From: Margaritifera margaritifera
Taxonomy: Eukaryota; Mollusca; Bivalvia; Unionida; Margaritiferidae
Direction of reading: 5' to 3'
DNA: 64,000 bases
Assembly: GCA_029931535.1 (NCBI GenBank)
Contig: JAQPZY010001186.1
Coordinates: 1-64,000 of the forward strand
In this document: positions 3,646 to 63,235 of the stretch, piece after piece
How positions within the stretch are numbered: position 1 is the first letter of the stretch
Layout: each line of letters begins with the position of its first letter
Program-made: the position numbers and the translations under genes
Notes under the pieces: generated by a model
Databases searched by the model: none
Seen by the model: the letters and a program-made list of their open reading frames with translations, nothing else
Told to the model about the DNA's origin: nothing

Positions 3646-5582
3646 GTAAATAATTAAGATCCCTAATGCAATATTGGCAAGAACAATTTGCCTTAGACTG
3701 ATAGACTGATACTAGTACTGAATTTGTTAAAAGTTCGAGTGTGTGGCTGAAAAATATATTCGTTAATTACAAAAGCTGTTTGCTTAGCTTAAATAATTCC
3801 CATTATGACCCAGGGCAGCTAGTGCTTTATGATTTTCCATAATATGTCCTCCAGTTGTATTAACAATACCAATATATGAAGAAAACACACATACTCGCAC
3901 ACATATACATCAACGTACACACCCAAATAATTTAATATCATATTACCTCACTTCAAATCATAGAACTAACCCATTTGTGCACTTGCATTGACTATACTAT
4001 ACGACTGTATGTCAATATTACACTGCTAACATTATGTGGACTGTTGCATATTTGTGTTCCCAGATTGCAAAAATAGTTATATATGTTGATACACAGATAT
4101 GAAACAAGTAATTTGATCAGTTCGCGTCTTTCCTTATAACCCATCGATGCTATTATAACATGAAATCCTTTGGCTCAATCATATACACTTTTAACTGCCG
4201 AAATATTACACAATTGATTATTTTATTGTAATGCGCCAGGTGAGAAAGCCTTAAATGTAAACATATAAAACATATATGACCGTTATCAGGAAATATGTTG
4301 TAACATCGCAAACTGCACTTCTGAGCATCACTATCGGGTACAAAATACTGAAGCACTATGAATAACAATGTAAATCTAGAGTTATTACACGTGAAGCTGG
4401 GGACGCAAATGTTCGCTAATAAAATATATAGAATACAGGAAACTATAGTAATCCTTAGTATTGTCAGGGAAATGTATTGATGCCATATTTGAAACGCTAA
4501 ATGAAATGGAAAAATGGGGCCTACCCCAAGAAACAAAAATATCTCCTTAACATCGACAGCATGAATGGAGTTCTTAATATGTTGCTAGCAAATCCTGTTT
4601 AGTTAGTCTGATGATAGTCATGTCATGTGGTATGGTTAGTCTGATGATATTCATCTCATGTAGTACGATTATGACGTGCATAAACATGTAATTATAATAT
4701 TAACCATCTATAGATTGTTTTGCAAGGGTATTCAAATGTTTCCCCGTTATGTAGGTCTCGATGCACGTGTGCTGTTTGTAGCTAAATCATTTTCATAGCG
4801 CATAACTTGCTTTTTGGACAGTAAAGTTGTTCATATCAATAATTAAAAATGCTAAGAAATTTGCAATTCTTGTTTTGTATTCCTTTGTACAGCTTATGAT
4901 AATATATTACAATCGTTCCAATCAAGATTCCTCAATTTCAAAGCAATCTGCTTCCACACCCCATCCACCTTTCCTGTGTATTTAATCCTTATTTTATGTG
5001 TGTGCTTATTTGGTTTGCAAACAAGATTATGAAATACATTATTTGCAATTTAAGCCCTACCTTCCTCTTGCGCTTGCAATAACAGGATTTACGTTCTTCT
5101 TTAGTTGTTTATTTTGCTAATACTTGATGACTAATCGCCTTGTATTACCTAATCAATGCCCGTACGTGAAGCGTGACGTCATTGCTGACTTTTATTAAGC
5201 GCAAAGTGTGTTACTTACATGTATATATTAACAATGTTACAGAGGATGGATTCTTTTCATGATTGTCGCGACGAACATAATCGCACCTATACATAGCCAA
5301 CTCTCATAGGGTGTATCTGAACTTGGTTCTAAACGAAAGGGCGAAGGAAATTATAAGCGAATTATTCTTCAAGTAGATAAATACGGTATATATAATTATA
5401 TTTTCATTCAGCGAATTGACCATCAGCAATTGACACACTAAAAACATAAATATTTATAAGCATTCAATCACTACATGACATTATATACTTTCATATACAT
5501 ACACGCATGACATACATATTCATGTCCACATGTATATTCATTCGTTGTTCAATGCTGCTATGACCGGCCAAGTGCGCGTCAC
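3646..5582. other. Non-coding stretch apart from the repeat at 4,140-4,700
   Basis: AT-rich sequence. G+C rises abruptly near 5,560, which marks the left edge of the viral remnant. No coding signal seen. Confidence 0.5.
4140..4700 (-). repeat. Dispersed repeat, inverted relative of 62,600-63,235
   Basis: The reverse complement of this stretch matches 62,600-63,235, including TGTTACACGTGAAGCT-like, GTTGTAACATCGCAAACT and CTGTCGATGTTAAG blocks. At 4,590-4,680 two ~33 bp units with AGTCTGATGATA occur, seen as about four units in the right copy. A 127-codon frame on the minus strand is only partly preserved in the other copy and is not called as a gene. Confidence 0.6.
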
Positions 5583-6165
5583 CTACTTACGCGACCGATC
5601 GTGAATCAACAATTCCTGCGCGTACTGATGTCGGAACAATCGTTCCGCAAGTGTGCGGTTGAATCGTTCCACAATGGCTTGATCGCGATGCACGCCGGCA
5701 TGTCCACGACAAACCTGAACGTTGTGTTTCGCCAACAACGCAGTAACAGTTCCGACAAATTATTCTTCTACCTGCAGAAGATGCGGCCAACGCGTGCTGA
5801 ATCTTTGGACGTCAACGGCTCGGCTTCCTCGTACCTGCTGGCAGCATCTACGACGGTTAGTGCATATTTGTATGTGTGTAGACGACTTTGTCATCCACCT
5901 CCGCGTCCACGGCCAAGTATCTGATCACGCGGGAGGAACATTACATAAGCCTGGTGAACTTCGTTGAGCGTCGAAACATCAAATCATCCACATGAAATTG
6001 TCCTTGGCACTGGTAAATACATCTACCACAACACTCGTTCTGTCAGCCAGGCTCTGGCGACATGCAAGGAAACTTTTGCAATGCTCGCTAACTTTCCAGC
6101 GGCTTTTTCGCCCTTCCAAATAAACGTGCGGACTGTAGTATATCGCGGCCAGTTTCGAGTCAATG
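5583..6165 (-). pseudogene. Broken Polinton/adintovirus-type integrase
   Basis: Read leftward, several frames together show the retroviral-type integrase carried by Polintons and adintoviruses. First comes a helical N-terminal region with YYSPHVYLEGRKAAGKLAS, then KYALTVVDAASRYEEAEPL (first catalytic Asp), then RGHAGVHRDQAIVERFNRT with the last catalytic Glu, then AERLFRHQYAQEL. An in-frame stop sits at 5,760-5,762 beside the second acidic position, and at least one frameshift separates the N-terminal and core parts, so it cannot be active. The final stop is at 5,583-5,585. It lies directly downstream of the phospholipase-like remnant on the same strand. Base composition is visibly richer in G+C than the flanks, consistent with an inserted viral element. 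Confidence 0.8.
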
Positions 6166-6169
6166 TTTG

Positions 6170-6586
6170 TTATATTGAGGCTTTGCCTTCATGTCTTTCT
6201 CTGACAGCCGGTCCCGCAATTGCATTCAAGTCACGGATGAGATACACGTCCGCTTTTTGACGCGCACGTGTATCGCTTAATGTTTTGTACACGAGATCAT
6301 GTCGGCAACATGCAGCATCGACGCGGTTTACATGTTCTTCTCTGGGCTTTGGTGGGTTATTGGAATCAAATTTTACATACTACCGTGTTCCAGGCCCGCA
6401 GTTATTGTATCCAGGGATATGCGTTTCACCAGGATATTTACTACACGGTACCCCGGGGAGTTTCGTTAACGCAGTAGCGATATCCCCGCCGATTTTGTTT
6501 ATGGGACCTCGACCTAGAAGTTCACACAAACATAAACTTATTTGTGCCACATCGGGAATAAGTTCTAGCGATTCCATTTTTACCAT
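6170..6586 (-). pseudogene. Phospholipase A2-like virion domain, one in-frame stop
   Basis: One frame runs from ATG at 6,586 to a stop at 6,170-6,172, broken only by TAG at 6,380-6,382. It contains HIPGYNNCGPGTR (calcium-binding loop type, 6,383 upward) and RVDAACCRHDLVY (6,287-6,325), the H-D catalytic pair in the V/L-D-x-x-C-x-x-H-D-x-x-Y form. This pairing is that of the parvovirus VP1-type secreted phospholipase A2 fold, also reported in adintoviruses, where it is thought to help membrane passage. Its place between integrase and ATPase supports that origin. The stop falls between the calcium loop and the catalytic helix, so the protein is dead as it stands. Confidence 0.72.
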
Positions 6587-6688
6587 TATGCGTTATAACC
6601 CGAGTTGAATATGTGGTTCCGAGTTTTGATGCGGCATCGCACACAATATGAAGACATATTGATAAGTATACGACAAGTGCCATTCAAC

Positions 6689-7278
6689 ATGTCATCGCGA
6701 AAGAGAAAAATCGCCAAAGATTTGAAAAGCTCATTGACTTATCTGCGTCGGCGAAGCCCTGACCGCCCAAGCATAGTCCTGGTCATTGGCCCAATCGGAT
6801 CCGGTAAACCCCAACTGTTGCTGAATTTGATCATGCGATGGTTGGCAAGGGATTCGGTTGAAAGTGATTGCACCATTCGCGGACGATCAGCCGTGTTATG
6901 ACGTACTCGTCAGTGACCAGCGAAGCTGCGATCCAGTTTCTTTTTTCCACGATCGATGATGCCTCTACATTGACGTCGTGTACGACGATGTGATGCTTTG
7001 ACCGCCAATAAAACCCAGCGAAAATATTTTCCCCGGGCCGACTCAAAAAAGCAGACTCGATCTATGTGACACAACGATACAATCACGTGTCCAAAGTTAT
7101 CCGGCACAACGGCAACATGTTGATGATATTTTGTGGGGTCGACACACATGGCCTTGCAAACATTCATTGGAACTGGTGTGCCGCCGACCCTTCGTGGGAC
7201 GAGTTTCGGATTATGTTCGAGGAGGTCACCCGAGACAGGTATTTTTTCCTCACGATTGACGCTGTAGGAAACAAGTAA
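6689..7278 (+). pseudogene. Broken FtsK/HerA-type packaging ATPase (Polinton/adintovirus)
   Basis: From ATG at 6,689 a basic start (MSSRKRKIAKDL) leads to VLVIGPIGSGKPQLLLNLI, a Walker A loop at 6,788-6,811 in which the usual Thr/Ser after Lys is Pro. The frame stops at 6,901. A short stretch in another frame near 6,970-7,000 reads LYIDVVYDDVML and may be Walker B. From about 7,045 a third frame gives VTQRYNHVSKVIRHN and IHWNWCAADPSWDEF, matching the C-terminal part of Polinton A32-like packaging ATPases. At least two frameshifts plus the Walker A change mark it as a decayed gene. It is divergent from the phospholipase/integrase pair. Confidence 0.75.
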
Positions 7279-7389
7279 CTCGCGGGTCTGGACGCGAACA
7301 TGTGAAGAAATGTAACGATCACGATAAATGTATATAATGTCAAAACAGAGAATGCCGCCAGCGACGTTATAGCGAAGCTGCCTAAGAAG

Positions 7390-7802
7390 AACTGGAATTT
7401 CTCCGCGATTACATAGGCTTCTGCAAACGAGTCAAATATATGTTTCAATAGCGACAGACCGCACGGGAAGATCTCGCAGCGGGCTTCCAACACACGAAGC
7501 AGGCGCAACGGCTCGAAGCAGCTAAACATCAACACCTGGGGATAATTCTTAAGTTGTCAGCAGCAGGGGTTGCCGCGATGCAACATGAAGGCGGAATATT
7601 TCCATTTCTCGCGGCGATTCCAGCGCTGTTGGCGGCTGCATTCCCGCGGTTACAAAATGTTGAAAAAATATCCGATTTTTCTCGAGGCGTCTACAAGAAA
7701 AGGAAGAGGGTATTCGACTACGCGGGAGGACTTGGAGCTGAACAGATCTTCGGCTGCGGTCTCGCCGTTGACCACCGCAATGAGTCCATTGACCAATTTT
7801 GA
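7390..7802 (+). pseudogene. Possible capsid-associated small protein of the Polinton/adintovirus remnant
   Basis: One frame reads EELEFLRDYIGFCKRVKYMF, an internal stop, a basic/glutamine-rich helix, then GGIFPFLAAIPALLAAAFPR followed by KKRKR. A GG-x-x-P-hydrophobic segment beside a basic tail is the pattern of adenovirus pX-like core or minor capsid proteins found in Polintons, and it follows the ATPase. Overlapping open frames on the other strand make the reading uncertain. Confidence 0.32.
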
Positions 7803-8021
7803 TTTACCCGCGATGACAAAATCAGTCAATATTTCCGATGGGTCTTCGTGTGGAATGAACTTGCATCCACGATCCCCCTCACGTGGGAAACCGGCATCGT
7901 TAACATGAATTTTCAGCAGGACCTGGAACTTATTGGGTCGAATACACGGTAACACCTCGAAATATTTTGTGTTTTGACTTGTAAGGGCTTGCACCGCTGC
8001 GTGAAGTTGTTGATTATACAC
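7650..8021 (-). other. Unassigned open frame at the right edge of the viral remnant
   Basis: A 123-codon open frame on the minus strand, antisense to the capsid-like candidate. It reads PREGDRGCKFIPHEDPSEIL in its middle. I recognise no family. Its first bases fall inside the inverted terminus of the neighbouring transposon, so either its true start was removed by that insertion or it is a chance frame in GC-richer DNA. Confidence 0.25.
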
Positions 8022-8384
8022 TGGTCTACAATTTTTTCGAAGTCGTCGGCTTCAGTGATAAAATGTGCTATTTATTAGGCATTTTGATGTGCTGAAATCA
8101 AATATGACAATTAAAAAACCTATTTGGCTACTGTTTCCAATATATTGCAGTTTTTACATTTTACGTCTATGTATATTGTGTACATAGTAGAGTTTAAATC
8201 ATACATTTTAAACCTAGGTCTTTTCATGTGTTTATGGTTGCTTTACATGATAATATTACACCGGTCGTGCTCATGTAACACTTTACAAAACAGCAAAAGG
8301 GTTATATAAATAACAAATATATTGAAACAAAAGTCAAAAACTATTATGTATATATAAGTACATAGTTTAGTCCTTATTCAGTGT

Positions 8385-9921
8385 CTACTTCTTGGCTTGT
8401 CTCCTGTATTCATTAAATGGAGCATCTCTTGTCACTGTCCAGCAATAGTCTGCAAGCATTGATGGGCTCCATTTGCCCTGATAGCGTTTCCCCATTGTTG
8501 CAATGTCCTGGTGAAATCGCTTGCCGTGCTCGTCGATCACTGCTCCGCAGTTCGGTGGAAAACTATCTAGATGAGAGTGCAAAAAATGTATCTTTAGTGA
8601 CATGTTGCAACCAAGGCTTTCGTATGCCTTGAGGAGGTTTTCCAATAACTCCCTGTAGTTGTCTGCCTTGTTGTTTCCGATTAAATGCGTTGCCACTAAC
8701 TAGAAGGCTTTCCATGCCGTCTTTTCCTTTCCACGCAACATCTCGAAGAAGTTCACGAATCTGAGGACCAGCACACACACCTTCCTTTATCTTAGCTTCA
8801 CTTAACCTTGGAAATTTCCACGGAGGTATTTGAAAGCTGCTTGAGTTTTGTCCATGACCTTGACACAGTTCTTCATCAGACCCAGCTTGAAGTGCAAGGG
8901 TGTAAACAAAATCTTCCTTGGTTCAACACGTGGTTGATGCTGAACATTTTTAATCCAAGGTGCCAATGACTGTCGGAGTGGCCAATCTTTATTGATGTAG
9001 TGGGAATCTCTCTCCTCGACTATCCCATTCGCAGAGAAAACAGCAGTACTTTGTGTATCCAGTCTGCAGACCAAGGACGAGAGCAAGAACCTTGAAATCG
9101 CCACAAAGCTGCCACTGATATTGGTCATAGTTTATGCACCTCAAAAGTTGTTTCCTGTTTTCATAGGTTTCCCTCATAGGGACTGCATGACCAACTGGAA
9201 TTGATGACACTCCCATTATGCAGCAAAACAGCTTTAAGGACTCGCCTTCGATGAATCAATGAACGGTCCTCAATCATCTGGATCATGAATGATGTTGAGG
9301 GCTGCCATCACACCATCGATGTTGTTGCATGCTACAAGATCACCTTCCATGAAGAAGAATGGGACAAGATCCTTTTGACGGGCACGGAACATGGAAACCC
9401 TAACATGACCTGCCACGAGTTTCCTCTGCTGTAGTCTGGAGCCAAAAAGCTCTGCCTTACTCTTGTGTAGTTCCAAATCCCTGACAAGGTTATTCAGTTC
9501 ACCTTGTGTAATGAGGTGTGGTTCAGAGGAGGAGGATGGGAGAAAATATGGGTCATGTGACATTGATGGTTCAGGACTAGAAGTTTCATCCTCCTCCTCT
9601 TCTTCGTCTTACTCAAGTGAGAATGATTCTGGTGCATCAGGAACCGGCAGTCCTTCTCTGTGAGGTACTGGGCGTATAGCTGACGGAATGTTTGGATAAT
9701 GCACTGTCCACTTTTTCTTCTTTGACACACCTTTCCCAACTGGAGGCACCATGCAGAAGTAACAATTGCCACCTCTTGTCCTGATCTCCAATTTTGCAGT
9801 CAAAATAAAGGTGATAGACTTTCTCAACCATAATGGTTATACTGCTCTTTTGTGATGCAAAAGTCACTTCACCACAAACATGGCAGAAGTTATCTGCATT
9901 GTTCACACAAGTACGAGGCAT
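8385..9921 (-). pseudogene. Broken Cys/His-rich protein of the TIR element, candidate transposase
   Basis: Read from 9,921 down, successive frames give one protein broken by frameshifts. MPRTCVNNADNFCHVCGEVT has a Cys-x-x-Cys N-terminus. It is followed by IRPVPHREGLPVPDAPES, LITQGELNNLVRDL, GLQTGYTKYCCFLCEWDSRG, LHFKLGLMKNCVKVMDK, and finally KIHFLHSHLDSFPPNCGAV, RFHQDIATMGKRYQGKWSPS and DYCW. This set matches a highly repetitive uncharacterised protein family that I recall from arthropod and cnidarian genomes. The Cys-x-x-Cys-x-W/D core and the HLD...H.D tail resemble the layout of CACTA/KDZ transposases, but catalytic residues are not proven. Several stops and shifts make this copy inactive. 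Confidence 0.7.
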
Positions 9922-10108
9922 CTCTGCTCACTTTGGCTAAACAGAAATGTGTCCCTTTGCAAAAATCAAACACTGACAAATAAGAGAGCACGACACTGTA
10001 TGATTTGTAGAGCTGATCTAGGGCAATTTCTTCAGCAGAGTGATCTAAGCTTAGTTATGGTTGCATCATCCATGACTTCTAGGAAGAACATGATGTAATT
10101 CATATCAT

Positions 10109-10141
10109 GTATGATGCAATAATAAATTCAGATTGCATCAT
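10109..10141. repeat. Small inverted repeat inside the TIR element
   Basis: ATGATGCAAT, about ten bases of spacer, then GATTGCATCAT can pair as a hairpin stem. It lies between the presumed start codon of the element's gene and its terminus, where subterminal protein-binding motifs occur in many DNA transposons. Confidence 0.4.
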
Positions 10142-10432
10142 TCATTGTTTTGCCTAAAAAGTAAGTACTGTCCAAACCCGCTCATAGATTTATTCATAGA
10201 CCCAGTCAAAGATGTATTTTAGTGATTTCTGGTTTAAATTGAGATTCCTTCCCTTTATAACTCACTTATCCTCCTCCATTCCCAAGTCAAGGGTCATATA
10301 TACTGACCCAGTATAATATCTTTAATACTAGAGCCAACAAACATTTTAAAGTATCGTTTTCGTTCTCAGTGACCCATAATTAGTCACGTTTGACAACATT
10401 TATTGCGGAAACATTTTGGCCGTAGACCAGTG

Positions 10433-11449
10433 TTATGTGAAAGATAAGTACATACGTGAAATGCATTTCTTGTATGATTGTATCAAAAGAGAGAGAACAT
10501 TTTTATATACTTGGCAGTACTACATTAACATATATCATACTTTATTCATCAAGACTGAGCCGAAAATAAGTCTTGACACTCAATAAGCATAACATAAACT
10601 AATTATGAGAAGTATTTGAATCTAGGAATAAAAAAATAATGGCTACTCTGGAAGGATTACCAAACATATTTTATTATCAAGGCATTAATTTAGAGAAGCA
10701 ACTAACTATTTGTTTATGAAACACACTCACACACACATTAAAATTATTACTATTAATGTAAACAATATGTACACGGATCACCACTGTATATTGTTCATCA
10801 TCAGCAGTACACACTATAACATTGCATGGAACAGGCATACGTTAGCTAGTATGCAGCAGGGAATACGTCTGCAGATAAACATAAAAGAAAATATGGATAC
10901 ACATATAATGCATATTTACTTTGCTTCTGCTGCGCAGGTATATATTCAGAACAACCAACTAATGTATATTATGATTTGGTAATTCAAAGGACTTAAAATA
11001 CACATATACTGTGCTTATATGTGGTGTTACTAGTTGTGGAAACACAGTTTGGATCTGATTACTTTTTTAATATCTGCCCAACACGTATGTGCAATAACAC
11101 TTACAACAACAACATTGACATTTTGGAGACGATAATTTAATTGTAATAGATCCTGGTGATAAATTCGATAAATGGTTAGCATTCCTCATTATTATATAAC
11201 GACAAACAAATACTTTGTTTCTAATAAGCGATTATGTGGACCTAAATGACTTAAAAAAGAAAGCAACCAATCTACGTTATCATTCAGTAGTAGGTATTAT
11301 GAAATATCAATATGGGTCATAGTGTAAATATATAATGTAATTGTTCGTGACTTCGGTGAAATCACAAGGTTTAATGTTGTGTTTATACTCGAGACAAAAA
11401 AGCTGTAGATTGTATTATTGATGACAATTACATAATACCGGATGAAATA
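10433..11449. other. AT-rich spacer between TIR element and repeat copy A
   Basis: A 90-codon frame at 10,710-10,982 is His/Ile/Met-rich and looks like chance in low-complexity DNA. No continuation of the viral remnant is seen beyond the TIR element. Confidence 0.5.
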
Positions 11450-11996
11450 AAGGAGAAATTATAGAAAATATTAAAACAGAATAAACTTACATAGTGCGCC
11501 TATTGTATCCATTTGATTACAAATAAAATATATTTGCATAAGAAACCAACGTTCCAAAAAAAAGACGTTCACAATTTAAAATACAATTAAAAGTACAGTC
11601 AAAGTACTACAAAGTATGACGCAAAATCTCGTGTATGCAAAATGAAGAAGAAAAATCACACAAGACTACTGTAGTGTGACAAAGCACAACACAGTACCTT
11701 GTATGTGCAGTAAATGTAGAATATGTTTTTTCTAAATTATGATAGTGCACTAAGGTCTGGAAATAAAACTGCTCCATCCTTCTTTGGGTGGAAAAGTGGT
11801 TTATTTCATATGTCCAGCGCACAGGAGAGCATTTAAGAACTAAGGTGAGCATTATGTATAAATTTGTAATAAGTATTGCAATATTGTAATAATTAATTCT
11901 AAATAAATAACATTAGCTTTTGCTACGTGAGTAGCACGGGGCGTCTTCGCTCTAAATAATAGCCGACGAGCATATGGACACTAACCACCAAGACTA

Positions 11997-12060
<64 letters not shown>

Positions 12061-13085
12061 CGATCCCATAAGTCCAGATTTATTTACAAATTTTAATCAA
12101 TTTGTGGGGCAAATTAAATTGGATGAGAAGAATAAAATAATAAATGAAAATAATTATAACATATGCTGCCACAGAGATGTCTAGTAACAGAGATGCTACT
12201 CAAAAATACCAAACTATGTGTTTATCTTTGTTTTAGGCCTGCATATGTCTCTATATTGTTATCTTCAATAGAAACCTAATTCCCCATTCGAATGTCATTT
12301 ATTAATGTATTATAGCATAGCTGCTTTTGATTGTATGTTTGAGTGCAAGTGTAAGTGTCAGCACTCATACCCTTTCCTTTCACCCCACCTTGGGTAAGTA
12401 GGGTTGAATAAAAGCATGTATGGTTGTATGCAGAATTGCAGGGTTTTATGGTTGTCCTACTGTGTGTATGTATATGACTGTTTATATGCATGCATACGTT
12501 TGTCTATCTACAAACTGGTTTTGTATTTATTACATTTGATTTTGTTTAACGTAATCTTTTAGGTAAAATGTTTTCTTGGTAACGTGTGTGTGGTACAATT
12601 TTTTTAATTAAATTGTTCTGCTTGTTTCTTTTTGGTACAGTATTGTAAATGTTTTGTTTAAACTTTTTATGTTGCGCATGCGTAACATTTATATGTATTG
12701 CTTATGAACAAAAAATCAGACATTTGTCATTTCTTATGCGCATTTTATTCCAATGAGCTTTCGCAAAAAAACCTCAGTTGAGCAAAATATATTGCCGGCC
12801 ATGACGTCAGCAAAATATGCACAACGGTGTTGAGATACGTCGTGACCTTTGTCCTTTGACCTAAGCTCTTGACGCTCTGCAATCTTGGATTATAAACGTT
12901 ACATGAAGTCTTATATCATAAATGTGTTTTAGGCTCACTCAGAGCAGTAAGGATGTGCATTGCATTCAATGTTTAATTTCCATATGATCCCCAATGTGAC
13001 ATCCTAATGTCAAATTCACCTATGACTCCCATACCGACCAATAATGTTAAACATGCATTGACATCCATACCGGCCCCCAACTTTG
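11450..13085 (+). repeat. 1.6 kb dispersed repeat, copy A
   Basis: Matches 58,690-60,255 in the same orientation along its length. Shared blocks include ATAGTGCGCCTAT, ATCTCGTGTATGCAAAAT, GCCACGTGAGTAGC-like, TTACGATCCCATAAG and ACATCCATACCGGCCCCCAA at the right end. The (AT)n tract at 12,003-12,058 occupies the same place as the (AT)n of the other copy. No long open frame; family unknown, possibly a non-autonomous element. Confidence 0.8.
12003..12058. repeat. (AT)n microsatellite
   Basis: Pure AT run inside repeat copy A. Confidence 0.98.
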
Positions 13086-13569: not shown

Positions 13570-14335
13570 AAAGGTTAATAATGCGTGGCGAGGACAATAC
13601 GGCATGTAAAGCCTTGCAGTTAATGGCAACACATTTGTTTGCACTCTCATCTAGATTTTGTTCCACCGAACTGCGGAAACAACAAATCAGACAACTACAG
13701 GGAGTTTGTGGAAAACCTCCTCAAGGCATACAAGAGCCTTGGTTGCAACATGCCACTAAAGATACATTTTTTGCACTCTCATCTAGATTTTTTTCCACCG
13801 AACTGCGGAGCAGTGAGCGCCGAACAAGCGAGCGATTTCACCAGGACATTGCAACGATGGAGAAACGCTATCAGGGCAAATGGAACCCATCAATGCGTGC
13901 AGGCTATTGCTGGACAGTAACAAGAGATGCTCAATTTAATGAATACAAGAGACAAGCCAAGAAGCGCCGAGTAGCCACTGAATAAGGACTAAACTATGTA
14001 TGTATATACACATAATATTTTTTTTACTTTTGTTTCAATATATTTGTATTTATATAATCCGTTTGCTGTTTTATAAAGTGTTACATAAACAGGAGAGGTG
14101 AAATATGATCATGTAAAGCAACCATAAACACATGAAAAGACATAGGTTTACAATTTATGATTAAATCTCTAGTATGTACACAATATTAACAGACGTAAAA
14201 TGTAAAAACGTAAATATCTTGGAAACATTAGCCAATCAGGTGTTTTAATTGTCATATTTGAATTCAGCACATCAAAATCCATAATAAATACCACATTTTA
14301 TCTCTGAAGCAGACGACTTCAAAAAAAGTGTCGAC
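13570..14335 (+). mobile_element. 5'-truncated second copy of the TIR element
   Basis: The plus strand here matches the reverse complement of 8,019-8,740, covering the last ~130 codons and the 3' tail. Frames give NNKSDNYREFVENLLKAY, KIHFLHSHLDFFPPNCGAV and ERFHQDIATMEKRYQGKW, ending KKRRVATE and a stop at 13,983-13,985. The tail matches closely to about 14,335, where GTCGACCA stands at the place of the terminus GTAGACCA. A ~40 bp segment is duplicated near the start (see findings). The 5' part is missing, so it is a dead copy. Confidence 0.75.
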
Positions 14336-15460
14336 CAATTATAACTAGCCACAAGTTGCGATGTAATACAGGAGACAAATATTGTCCAGTTCATAATATT
14401 GGTTCGTACCTTGTATCGCTTCAGATGCTTCTGCTTGTATACTTATAAATCTAAAGTCCCGTATGATAAAAAGGATGCAATGGGCAATGGGCTGTCAGTA
14501 TTTAAAAATCGAGCGGAATTCTAACTTTCCTTCCGCATGCGATACACTGATTAGCTTCAGTACACGTAATTATTTATTTATTTTTTTAATTTTTTTTTGG
14601 CATTACCACCTCCTGATCACAACTTTCTCAGTCTTTAGTTAAGTATGCTTTTCTCTATCTTAATTGTTCTCACATACGTTGGTAGTCATACATCTTTAAA
14701 CCGCACACAAATGATGTTCAGTCTAAGCATACCATCATTGCCGTAAGAGATACTTAGGTCTTGAAACGGCATTCTTCCAATAATGTTTACAGCTGTATTA
14801 TTTGCTTCTCCTTTATCCTATTGATCTAATAATCGAGAAAATGCATTATTCAAATTCAAACTAAAGTTATCCGTGGGAAGTTATGAGACTAATTTAATAG
14901 ATGCTCAAAATGAATATAATCTAAAGCGGGAGAAGAAACTAATCAGGATTTGTTTGATTTGTTTTTTAAGAGGTTGAGAGTACTTATGGAAAATAATACG
15001 TAGATAAATTAGATAATCAGGTTGAGTAAATGTCTAGACACATGTATCGATTAGACTAGGATTGAGAGAATATAGCATTATACATGTATACATGTTTTTA
15101 GATTGGTATCATAGAACTACGCCTATAAACATAATTAACAAAGTGAAATAGAAAGAAGGAATTAAACTATGCTTTGATATGCAAGCTACACAATTTAACA
15201 AGAAAATATATATTGATTCGCAATGTTTTTTTTTTTTTTTTTTTCTTCTTTTTTTTTGCTTTGTTAAATTAAATTTATTAACTCTGCACATTGATATATT
15301 TCGACCACTAGAGATAAATTGGATCAAACACAAAACCATACTTAAATGTTTTTTTTTTAATGCAATATAATCTATTATAAGCCCAGCAAGTGATCATTAG
15401 TAAAGGCCACAACGATATATCCTAAGTGAATATAAATATTGGATGAATAAATGTTCAACA

Positions 15461-31736: not shown

Positions 31737-32307
31737 GGTATCTAGCTACCTACCTATCAACTCATCTTCCTCCTTGGAATGTTTGCTCACATATTGAAAG
31801 GCATGCGCACATATATATGTTGAATCAAATGAGTGCGCATACACACAGACCAACATTCCTGGACATACATGTTTCTCATGAGGTCGTGTTATCTGCTTTA
31901 CATATTTTGGCATTGCTTCTTAATTGCTGATATTCCAAACCAATAGGTACTTCCAAAATGGGTGCATACAATTATGTCCATCCTTAACAACTACTGGTAA
32001 AATATGTCACCTGTATCAAACAAACTCTGAAACGAAATGCAATTATATACTGCTATAGGTCTCGAAATAGACTTTACATACTTGTCTTTTAGTGTCTTCT
32101 TGAACGATTCCACGGAGCAGTTAGAGAAAATCCAGGGGTTTCTGGAGTATGGCCTGGTTTTGTTGAATTTTGTCAAAGAGGGAGTCATAATAAATAAATC
32201 CTCAGCATTACAAGCTGTGGCGTTTCCCTCGCCGTCGTGGTCTGCTCCAAGACTAGAACAACAGGGTAGGCGCATGACTACAGTACAGCTTTGATAATCA
32301 GAATTTC

Positions 32308-32371
<64 letters not shown>

Positions 32372-35300
32372 TCTTAGTAAGATATGGGCTTTCAAAAACA
32401 ATTCATACTCGTTTCCGATAGTATTAGTATCACAAAAGCAAACATAAACTTTCCTCTCAAGGAACATTCAAGTATCCACAAGTTTTAATGAGTAACTGGC
32501 TATTAGAATATTTGCATTTATACAGCGTTATACAGTCACTGGCAGGTAATGTTAGTAAGTAATTTTCCACAGTAAGCTCATTCTTTATTATCATATAGGT
32601 TATGCATGTACAATATTTTTGAATATTTGCATTCCAATGTTGGAGATATTCACATTTAAGGATATCTGTAGTTTTATTTTTCATTATTGTATGTAGTAAA
32701 AACTACCCTCCAGCCAAATGTCAAATAGTCCTATTTCAGAAAACAGAAATGGATGTAATGGCCCGCTTACCGGTCTAATCATCTTGCAATATGGGAATGT
32801 TCACCTAATCGTATTTTTGCTCCTACATGTGTAGGGTCGGTCACGCGTTATCTCGGGAGCATCAGAAGATCACTTATGTGACTTACTCTTTATATCATAC
32901 ACAATTCAAAGTCTCTAAAACTTCAACCTATCTCAATCAATTGTAATCAACATTTCACAAACAAACACGATTTAAGCTACAATAACAAGAGGGCTGACAA
33001 ATATGGCGCCTGGAGTTGACTTACTTGTGTCCAAGTTCGTGTGTTGCTGTTAACACCGTCCGAGAATAATCACGTGCAGTGATAACTGAAGTTATATAAC
33101 CCGTGACACACACACTCCCTGCATAGGTTATACCTGATAGGAAAAACATAAGAAGATTGGATATAATAATTACTTTTTTAAATGCTGGAGTTAAAAACTC
33201 GTCAGTTCTTCTGAGCTGGAAATGTAAAATATACAGATTATACAAACTCAAGAATGTATGTTTTTTTTTAGAAATACAGTTTGTTCCTCTCAATGGAATG
33301 ACATTCTATATACATTTGAGTGCATGCATTGCTAAAGCAGGGCATATAAATGCGTGAAATGTAAAGTTTATGTTACAACGATTACGTCGACATAAACTGG
33401 CTGACACATAAATATAGTGATTACACCCAATGCAAATATCGATATTTGTTCTACCGAGTGTGAGTGACTATATGCCTTTTTTGACGACAAGATAAAACTA
33501 TACACATACATGCATACATACACGCATACATACATCAGGTTAAATCTCTGTAAACCGGTCCCTTTATAAACCGGCATCCTCAGCAGGTTGGCTAAATAGT
33601 TTGATCCCAACAACATGTATGGACCTGTCACACCTGATCTTGCGACTGCCTGCATGCATGGACCACCAGTATATAAAACATAGATCCAACGGCTCTATTC
33701 ATACATAAACCATTGCAATTTTGCCTGTGCAAAAAGGCTACCTACTTATAAAGACCATTTTCCGATGGTCGTCTTAGTGTTTATTGATTTATACAAAATT
33801 ACAGTTGAATTACTTTAAGCAACGTAATATGTCATTTTACCTCCATCACGTCAACATGGCATTCCTTAGTGTCTTAAACCTACAATTTTGATGTCATGAT
33901 CATACGATATGTGGATATATTGCATATCACGTGACCTGCTTTCATTCAGTTAAAAGTCAGCTCTCACATGAATCATAATATACTACAAAACTAGAAAGAT
34001 CATACCGGTTATATGACCACCCATCTGAAACGACAAAGAAGTTTAAAGAACCGAAGTTAACCTTCAGCATTTAGATGTTTCCATTACTGCGACAACCTCG
34101 GTAATAAAACAACTTTTCTTTACTCCGATGTGTTGTCCATTATCAAGGTTTAACTACATAGGGATGTTTTACTATATTATATTCATTGTCACATAGTGTT
34201 CGCTTCGAATTAACAAATTAAATCATATGTCAAAATTGAAACCTATCTTACAAGACCTCTTTATAAACCCTAAAATATGGTCTCTGACATCAGATGGTCT
34301 TGCAATGCAGGTTTTTGTTGAGCATGTTAAGTGTCATATAGAGAATCAAATTTCCTGGTTAATTGAATGGGTGTTGTTTTATGGTATTACTGTATATCTT
34401 TGTGCAAAAATGCAGAGACAAAACCCTTCACAAATAATGGTAATTATGACTGCAATATAGTACTTCGTGTAGAAGGCACATTTGTCGTTCTAACAAATCA
34501 TATTATTCGAACAAATAACCGATACAACCGGTAGGAGGCTGTTTCGGTGACACGAACAAAATTATCTATTCAACTTTGAGCTTCTAGAATTATAGTACGT
34601 GTTATACTGCTTGGAAAAGGTTTACTACCAAATAAGTTGGTAGTGACTTGAGTGTAACTGTTTTAATGGATACTGGCTCCAAACTAAGAAATTTGTAACC
34701 TGCATGTATTAAACTTAATAAGAAAACGTATGACACATTATTGTAATTAGCGTGTGTGAGTGTGTGTGTGTGTGTGTTTATGTATTCGTGTGTACTTACC
34801 GTCAGTATAACCTTTACAAGAGGAGCCAAAATTCAAGTGATGCCTAAAAATAAAATTAATCGTTATATGTACTTGCATAATATATTTTACGACAGAATGA
34901 CAAAAATATTTAATCCTCATTTACAAACAAGAGCAAGGTATTAAACAAACTAGTATAGATACCTGATGAAAAATGGAACATATTCCATTACAAAAGGATG
35001 AGATTGTCATGAAGTCTGGAAGAAGACACGTATGGATTCAAATCACATTTTGTGACATAGTTTGCCATATGAGAAAGCCATGTGGAATATAAATCTACCG
35101 CACGTGACATGAAATTGACACTGTCATGCCATTAGCCCAATATATGTCCATTACAATTGCAGCACATACAGACATTGATCCGTAATTATCAATTTCACCA
35201 CATTATTTGACAGAGAAATGAGAGAAAGATTGTCCATCACATGCCTTGGTATTAGATGTGGAAAGATTCACACCAGTGTATAGCTTATAACATGTTTGCT

Positions 35301-58689: not shown

Positions 58690-59194
58690 GACATTATAGA
58701 AGAAGAAAAAATAAAACAGAGTAAACTTACATAGTGCGCCTATGGTATCCATTTGATTGAAGCCAAAATGTATTTGCATAAGAAGCAAACATTCCAACAA
58801 AAATAATAAGTTGAAAATATGAAATAAAAGTACAGTCAATGTGCAACAAAGTATGACACAATATCTCGTGTATGCAAAATTAAGAAGAAAAAACACACCA
58901 GACTGCGCAGTACATGTAGACAATTTGTAAAAAATATGATAGTGGACAAAGGTCTGAAAATAAAACTGCTCCATCCTCCTTTGCGTGTCTTATGTCATAT
59001 GTCCTGCGCACAGGAGAAAATTTAATACTAAAGTGAGCATTATGTATATAAATTTTAATTAAGTATCACAACATTTTAATAAATATTAATAAATAAATAA
59101 CATTAGTGTTTGCCACGTGAGTAGCATTGGACGCCTTCGGTCTAAATAATCACCGACGACCATACAGACACTAACCACCAAGAATCCAAGAAGA

Positions 59195-59264
<70 letters not shown>

Positions 59265-60255
59265 CGATCCCATAAGCCCAGATTTATTTACCAATATTAA
59301 TCACTTTGTGGGGTAAATTAAACTGGATGAGAAGAATAAAATAATAAATGAAAATAATTATAACATATTCTGCCGCAGATCTCTCTAGAAGCAGAGATGC
59401 TGCTAAAAAATACCAAACTATGTGTTTCTCTTTGTTTTATGTATGTATATTTCTATACATTTTTATCTTCAATAGAAACCTAAATCCCCATTCTAATTGT
59501 ATTTATTAATGTATTCTAGCATAGCTGTTTGTGATAGTAAGTGTCAGCACTCATACCCTTCCCTTTCACCCCACTTTGGGTAAGTAGGGTTGGATATAAG
59601 CATGTATGGTTGTATGCAGAATTGCGGGTTTTAATGGTTGTATGACTGTGTGTATGTGTGTGAATGTTTATATGCATGCATACGTTTGTCTATCTACAAA
59701 TTGGTTTTGTATTTATTACAGTTGATTTTGTTTAAATGTATTATTTTAGGTTAAATCTTTTCTTGGTAACGTTTTTGTGGTACAGTTTGTTTTATTAAAT
59801 TGTTATACTTGTTTCTTTTTTGGTGCAGTGTTGTAAATGTTTTGTTTACACTTTTCTTTTGCGCATGTGTAACATTTGTATTCGTTGCTTATCACCAAAA
59901 ATATTAGACATTTGTCATTTCTCTTCCGTATTTTATTCGAATGTGCATTCTCAAAAAAACCCAGTTGCGCAAAATATAGTGCCGGTCACGACGTCATCAA
60001 AAATTATTACGGTGTTAAGATAGGCTTTGTTCTTTGTCTCTTAACGCTCTGCAATCTTGGATTTAAAAACGTCACATGAAGTCTTATATCATAAATGCGT
60101 TTGGGGCTCAGTCAGGGCAGTACGAATGTGTATTGCATTCAATGTTAAATTTGCATAGGATCCCCAATGTGACATCCTAATGTCAAATTCACTCATGCCT
60201 TCTATACCGATAATAATGTTAAACATGCATTGACATCCATACCGGCCCCCAATGG
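58690..60255 (+). repeat. 1.6 kb dispersed repeat, copy B
   Basis: Direct-orientation partner of 11,450-13,085, differing by scattered substitutions and small indels. Carries (AT)n at 59,197-59,261. It lies just upstream (on the minus strand) of the metalloproteinase start. Short open frames inside it are shared with copy A but poorly conserved, so they are not taken as genes. Confidence 0.8.
59197..59261. repeat. (AT)n microsatellite
   Basis: AT run inside repeat copy B, at the position equivalent to 12,003-12,058. Confidence 0.97.
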
Positions 60256-62599: not shown

Positions 62600-62913
62600 T
62601 CAATGAGATGAATATCATCAGACTAACCATGCTACATGATTTGACTATCGTCAGACTAATTATAATACATGATATGACTATCATAAGACTATACATGCTA
62701 CATGATTTGTCTATCGTCAGACTAATGATACTACATGTTATGATTATCATCAGACTAACTAATCAGGATTTGATAAAACAATAATACGAACTCCATTCAC
62801 GCTGTCGATGTTAAGAAGATATATTTCTCCCATGCGGTAGGCCCCACCTTCAAATACCACCTAGCGTTTCACATTCGGCATCTATAAAGTTTCCTGGCAC
62901 TACTAAGGATTAC

Positions 62914-62962
<49 letters not shown>

Positions 62963-63235
62963 CAAAAATTTGCATCCACAGCTTCACGTGTAACAACGAT
63001 AGATTGACATTGTTTTTCAAAGTGCTTCATTATTTTGTACGCGACAACCTTGCCCAGTTGTGTAGTTTGCGACGTTACAACATATCTTTTGATAGCAGTC
63101 ATAACTTTTGCATCTATTTATACTTTAGGCTTTCTCAGCGGGTGCTTTACACAAATTATAAATTGTGTCATGTTTCGGCAATTAAAGATGTGTACGTTTG
63201 GGCTGAAGGATTTTTACTACCATTAAAAGGTTCAT
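62600..63235 (+). repeat. Right copy of the 4,140-4,700 repeat with a 33 bp minisatellite
   Basis: Contains about four ~33 bp units built on ATCGTCAGACTAATxATACTACATGAT between 62,610 and 62,762, then single-copy matches to the left relative up to 63,235. An (AT)n tract at 62,914-62,956 stands where the left copy has only a few AT units. Confidence 0.6.
62914..62956. repeat. (AT)n microsatellite
   Basis: AT run with one TACATA interruption, inside a dispersed repeat. Confidence 0.95.

Follow-up and report, generated by a model that had tools for sequence, protein, structure and literature searches.

We analysed a window of 64,000 nucleotides from Margaritifera margaritifera (contig JAQPZY010001186.1). 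At positions 8019–10432 it carries a 2414-bp element whose exact 11-base inverted ends (8019–8029 and 10422–10432) enclose the remnant of a transposase gene on the minus strand. This is very probably a Chapaev3-group transposon of the cut-and-paste kind, with a single gene and no longer active, flanked by traces of its target site. The terminal inverted repeat (TIR) at 8019–8029 (plus strand; CACTGGTCTAC) lies beyond the 3′ end of the gene, and its counterpart at 10422–10432 (minus strand; GTAGACCAGTG on the plus strand) lies upstream of it. The inverted match reaches 12 bases (8018–8029 and 10422–10433). Taken alone, it is within chance expectation: of 200 dinucleotide shuffles of positions 7500–11000, 66 contained a 12-base inverted pair whose arms were separated by 300 bases or more, and of 500 shuffles, 15 contained an 11-base pair starting with CAC. 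The ends are nevertheless real, because the similarity of a second copy in the window begins at the same end, and because pairs of the 11-mer enclose the gene elsewhere in the genome.

The second, partial copy (13582–14337, plus strand, thus in the opposite orientation; blastn, tblastn) consists of a transposon end and the last part of the gene. Running from 14337 down to 13582, it is 89% identical to the first copy, with position 8022 pairing with 14337, and it is truncated or interrupted beyond 13582. A 43-bp direct duplication (13635–13677 and 13767–13809) lies inside it, near 13582, where the similarity to the first copy stops.

The transposase pseudogene occupies 8388–9921, as delimited by tblastn with a relative of 562 amino acids, P0122. 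Residues 1–51 of P0122 correspond to 9921–9769 and residues 92–265 to 9767–9240, followed by pieces in changing frames as far as 8388; residues 52–91 are absent, stops interrupt the gene, and its longest stop-to-stop reading is 119 amino acids. The gene is thus broken. Two motifs named by an earlier, sequence-only reading of the window, YTKYCCFLCEWDSR and RFHQDI, are present on the minus strand at 9057–9016 and 8519–8502, respectively (counted from open reading frames).

We scanned the host genome (2.45 Gb, 1696 contigs) for the 11-mer end and found 1668 forward and 1695 reverse occurrences, versus 487 and 516 for a reversed control pattern. Among 100 places listed of these 3,363, 40 form 20 plus/minus pairs, 1.67–2.6 kb apart, which are all the close pairs among the places listed. 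These 20 copies, chosen by their ends, were fetched with about 200 bp of flank each, and transposase sequence was found inside every one. The result bears out the sequence-only reading in its exact inverted ends and in the DNA transposon that they were said to bound, and it contradicts an accidental 11-base match. The terminal repeat is the 12-bp CACTGGTCTACA at both ends of the 20 copies, from which the window copy differs by one change, on its right side. CAC...GTG ends are found in the window copy and in all 20 fetched copies; where one end stood by itself, at eight additional loci, the element starts exactly at that end in six and does not do so in two.

Nineteen of the 20 copies measure 2468–2606 bp, and the remaining one (L009, 1669 bp) retains residues 1–335 only. 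In four copies (L010, L015, L021 and L025) a single alignment covers P0122 residues 1–562 over 1662–1692 bp, and the coding unit is therefore without an intron; in the remaining copies the gene is split into collinear pieces whose frames change. The reading frame is broken in the window copy and in all of the 20, where the longest stretch between stops ranges from 144 to 413 amino acids. Mean pairwise identity is 94.1% and the mean Kimura two-parameter distance 0.062 (210 pairs, 20 copies and the window copy), with the window copy 88.2–93.2% identical to the 20. Two copies on contig 48 (L024 and L025), about 12.8 kb apart, have identical flanks and are probably one insertion copied by segmental duplication. 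Another copy (L023, contig 45) lies inside an AT-rich tandem repeat; we considered this repeat as a natural empty site and rejected it, since its edges do not line up.

The flanks of the copies identify the target site. Identical 3-bp flanks were found in 11 of the 20 pairs (TTA in seven, TAA in four), ten of them independent when L024 and L025 are counted as one duplicated site. Flank identity at 2 and 4 bp was seen in one pair of 20 each, and at 5, 6 and 8 bp in none. Between different copies, 3-bp flanks agree at a rate of 0.216, which the left-right agreement of 11/20 exceeds; the left-right agreement therefore goes beyond a shared preference for TWA. With copies oriented as in their contigs, A-TWA borders the left end of 11 of the 20, and TWA-T the right end of 13. 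The element inserts at A-TWA-T with a 3-bp TWA duplication, as described for Chapaev3. Inspection of genomic ends and flanks, proposed along with the sequence-only reading, accordingly gave CAC ends throughout a set chosen by its ends, and TWA duplications in about half of it.

In the window copy, TTA at 10433–10435, followed by T at 10436, is the right-hand target site duplication, TWA-T being common in the genomic copies. TTA at 8014–8016, after A at 8013, is the probable left-hand duplication; the extra TA at 8017–8018, before CAC, may be a later slip. Two other readings, a 12-bp TIR with a TAT duplication and a 5-bp TTATA/TTATG duplication, are both possible from the window alone, and were dropped because the genomic copies show CAC ends and TWA.

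A search with the reading of the window gene drew 7106 candidates, of which 1467 matched at E≤0.001. The named hosts among the matches listed are all animals (Araneus, Helobdella, Diabrotica, Zootermopsis, Pyrocoelia, Eumeta, Ranitomeya, Lethenteron and Chrysemys), in agreement with the widespread animal family proposed earlier. Our view of the family is based on the best 120 of the 1467 proteins, aligned as sets of 26 (A1) and 106 (A2; 14 short or truncated proteins omitted). D260, D314, C333, C336, H382, H490, H495, D508, E509 and E512 (P0122 numbering) are unchanged in all 106 aligned relatives. L381 is invariant. The pair C333/C336 forms a Cys-x-x-Cys, in line with the motif noticed at the outset; L381-H382 and H490/H495 form two further motifs. 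The family accordingly keeps both acidic residues and zinc-ligand pairs. At the N terminus, C5, C13, C16, C57, C60, H89, C93, C96 and H127 are retained in 98–106 of the 106 relatives, and this Cys/His part is modelled with high confidence.

Pfam gave no convincing match for the window gene pieces or 26 relatives, and NCBIfam none for four relatives. Two of the 26 relatives matched RT_RNaseH (best E 0.031); we take these matches as general RNase H likeness and not as the identity of the family. No EnSpm/CACTA model was among the Pfam matches of the 26 members at E up to 10, in a search whose filters drop weak matches. Relatives were not found in viral, prokaryotic, phage and plasmid collections, either by protein or by the DNA pattern of the ends, and a viral fold library gave no match at E≤0.001. 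Six motif strings of the family were not found in the searched literature, and the end sequence occurred in six papers, all titled on other subjects.

The traits of the element are those described for Chapaev3 (Merrow, Garfield and Conan; PMC4079192). Chapaev elements are reported to have CAC/GTG ends and 3–4-bp duplications, and Chapaev3 in particular TWA duplications between A and T and transposase motifs C(2)C, LH and H(4)H (PMC4079192). The family shares the ends and the TWA duplication between A and T, and also the motif set, with L381-H382 as the probable LH. It further resembles Chapaev3 in a transposase of about 560 amino acids, an element size of 2.3–2.6 kb and animal hosts; for comparison, Garfield_BM is 2289 bp long and encodes 556 amino acids, and Merrow_PM 2451 bp and 78+484 (PMC4079192). 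This kind of element is thus already described in animals, contrary to the earlier suggestion that it might not have been: it agrees with the Chapaev3 of 2014 in its ends, its duplication and target bases, its motifs and the length of its protein (PMC4079192), and PMC4411706 cites a Repbase Reports entry on Chapaev3 from 2008. In the latter paper, a single tree holds Chapaev3, Transib and RAG1, and Chapaev3 is given an N-terminal Chapa zinc domain.

Searches of the PDB gave no significant sequence match for the family. We compared the predicted fold of an intact relative with known structures. In Foldseek, RAG1 occupied ranks 1–18 and the P element rank 19. VIA-align Z scores were 14.8–20.5 for RAG1 entries, 18.4 for BbRAGL, 19.1, 12.3, 12.1 and 11.8 for HzTransib, 11.9 and 11.3 for the P element and 9.4 for Hermes. 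The transposase core is thus predicted to fold like RAG1, which cleaves antibody genes. The match begins at about residue 459 of mouse RAG1, which we take to fall after the nonamer-binding domain. The RAG1/Transib core is present in the model, and the candidates for DDE residues, D260, D314 and E509/E512, are kept in 106 of 106 relatives; the catalytic residues would be D260, D314 and either E509 or E512. Cutting may proceed by nicking and hairpin formation as in RAG/Transib, and the N-terminal Cys/His domain may bind DNA. In an active relative, the ends of 12 bp would be bound by a transposase of about 560 amino acids, whose DDE catalytic core, similar to that of RAG1/Transib, would cleave them; the element would then integrate at A-TWA-T, with TWA duplicated.

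Several observations weigh against assignment to Chapaev3. The 3-bp duplication is not identical in 9 of 20 pairs, three of these (L011, L014 and L016) being one base off, and the TWA duplication is read from the flanks of inserted copies. The left end of the window copy has two additional bases between TTA and CAC. Three of the four HzTransib entries score essentially no higher than the P element. PF06918 (DUF1280), said to be Chapaev (PMC3985635), was not matched by the 26 members at E up to 10, again with filters that drop weak matches. Membership of Chapaev3 rests on described traits, not on a tree or on named Chapaev3 sequences. Finally, the transposases of Merrow and Garfield have two exons, those of most other Chapaev3 one (PMC4079192), and the window-element family has one. 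A two-exon gene was raised by Met75 starts in 6 of the 120 relatives (P0145, P0154, P0174, P0179, P0210 and P0228), and was rejected in view of the four copies aligning over residues 1–562 without an intron. Nor did we use the lamprey protein P0178 as proof of Merrow, because its best non-self match (P0121) has 81% protein identity, versus the 87–98% nucleotide identity reported for Merrow between hosts (PMC4079192).

The best surviving alternative, which we consider improbable, is that the family forms its own lineage next to Chapaev3 within the CACTA-Mirage-Chapaev-Transib clade, and that it has its ends and TWA target in common with Chapaev3 through shared ancestry or convergence. Such a clade is described in the literature: Chapaev is placed within a CACTA-Mirage-Chapaev(-Transib) group (PMC12730594, PMC4079192), and EnSpm, Mirage, Chapaev and Transib are united by C(2)C and H(3–4)H motifs, CA..TG ends and 2–5-bp duplications (PMC12730594). 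EnSpm/CACTA accordingly resembles our family in CAC ends, 3-bp duplications and these motifs (PMC12730594), and the family differs from it in its TWA target. The testable Chapaev3 traits of PMC4079192, namely ends, TWA between A and T, motifs and protein length, are all found in the family and argue against a separate lineage. In favour of one are the lack of Pfam or NCBIfam family matches and the comparison with Chapaev3 by description instead of by a tree of named sequences.

The transposases of Kyakuja-Dileera-Zisupton (KDZ) elements are of DDE type with CxxC. The family has a CxxC motif after the second Asp and a conserved DEHGER motif, which may be a resemblance to KDZ. A KDZ element is, however, very unlikely, as the 8-bp duplications made by Zisupton (PMC12730594) were seen in 0 of 20 copies, in contrast to the 3-bp TWA duplications in 11, and as the fold is RAG1-like. 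Of the CACTA/KDZ-like class proposed in the sequence-only reading, the CACTA part therefore stands in the broad sense of the group above, and the KDZ part does not. A Transib element is equally unlikely. Transib and RAG-like elements make 5-bp duplications (PMC4411706, PMC7204232), and none were found among the 20 copies; the same length separates the family from the RAG1 core and BbRAGL (ProtoRAG). Moreover, the family has an N-terminal Cys/His domain, whereas canonical Transib is described without an identifiable domain besides the core (PMC4411706). We rejected both memberships on duplication length. That a gene fragment lies between inverted repeats by accident, as the 12-base pairs in the shuffles would allow, is practically excluded by the same ends around the same gene in every fetched pair and by the element at six of eight single-end loci.

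Other features of the window were noted beside the transposon. A G+C-richer stretch (0.475 in 6001–8000) adjoins it at 6831–8051 on the minus strand, with several overlapping open reading frames; three of these were scanned against Pfam without a match at E up to 0.1. An interspersed repeat is present in two copies (11466–13080 and 58706–60252), in the same orientation about 47.2 kb apart, with pieces 84–100% identical, and one of them ends about 500 bp from a broken transposon copy. The minus-strand open reading frame 31991–32467 gave a weak match to a reprolysin metalloprotease (E 0.0024; 18.3 bits versus a cut-off of 20.8), and may represent an exon of an ADAM-type host gene. An inverted pair of about 430 bp (4227–4663 and 62698–63151), 78–80% complementary, lies near both ends of the window.

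The consequence of the assignment is mostly one of naming. A large set of animal 'uncharacterized proteins' without a Pfam or NCBIfam match can be labelled Chapaev3-type transposases, and with that label they would no longer be mistaken for host genes. The predicted RAG1-like fold agrees with the published tree of Chapaev3 with Transib and RAG1 (PMC4411706), and provides a structural model for a family without a sequence-level match in PDB. Tentatively, and with the odds against it, these unnamed animal proteins may be transposases of Chapaev3 type that lack a nonamer-binding domain and combine a RAG1 core fold with a zinc domain at the N terminus, homologous to the N-terminal region of RAG1. 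If so, an intact relative would serve as a compact model, without RAG2, for the stem of the RAG recombinase.
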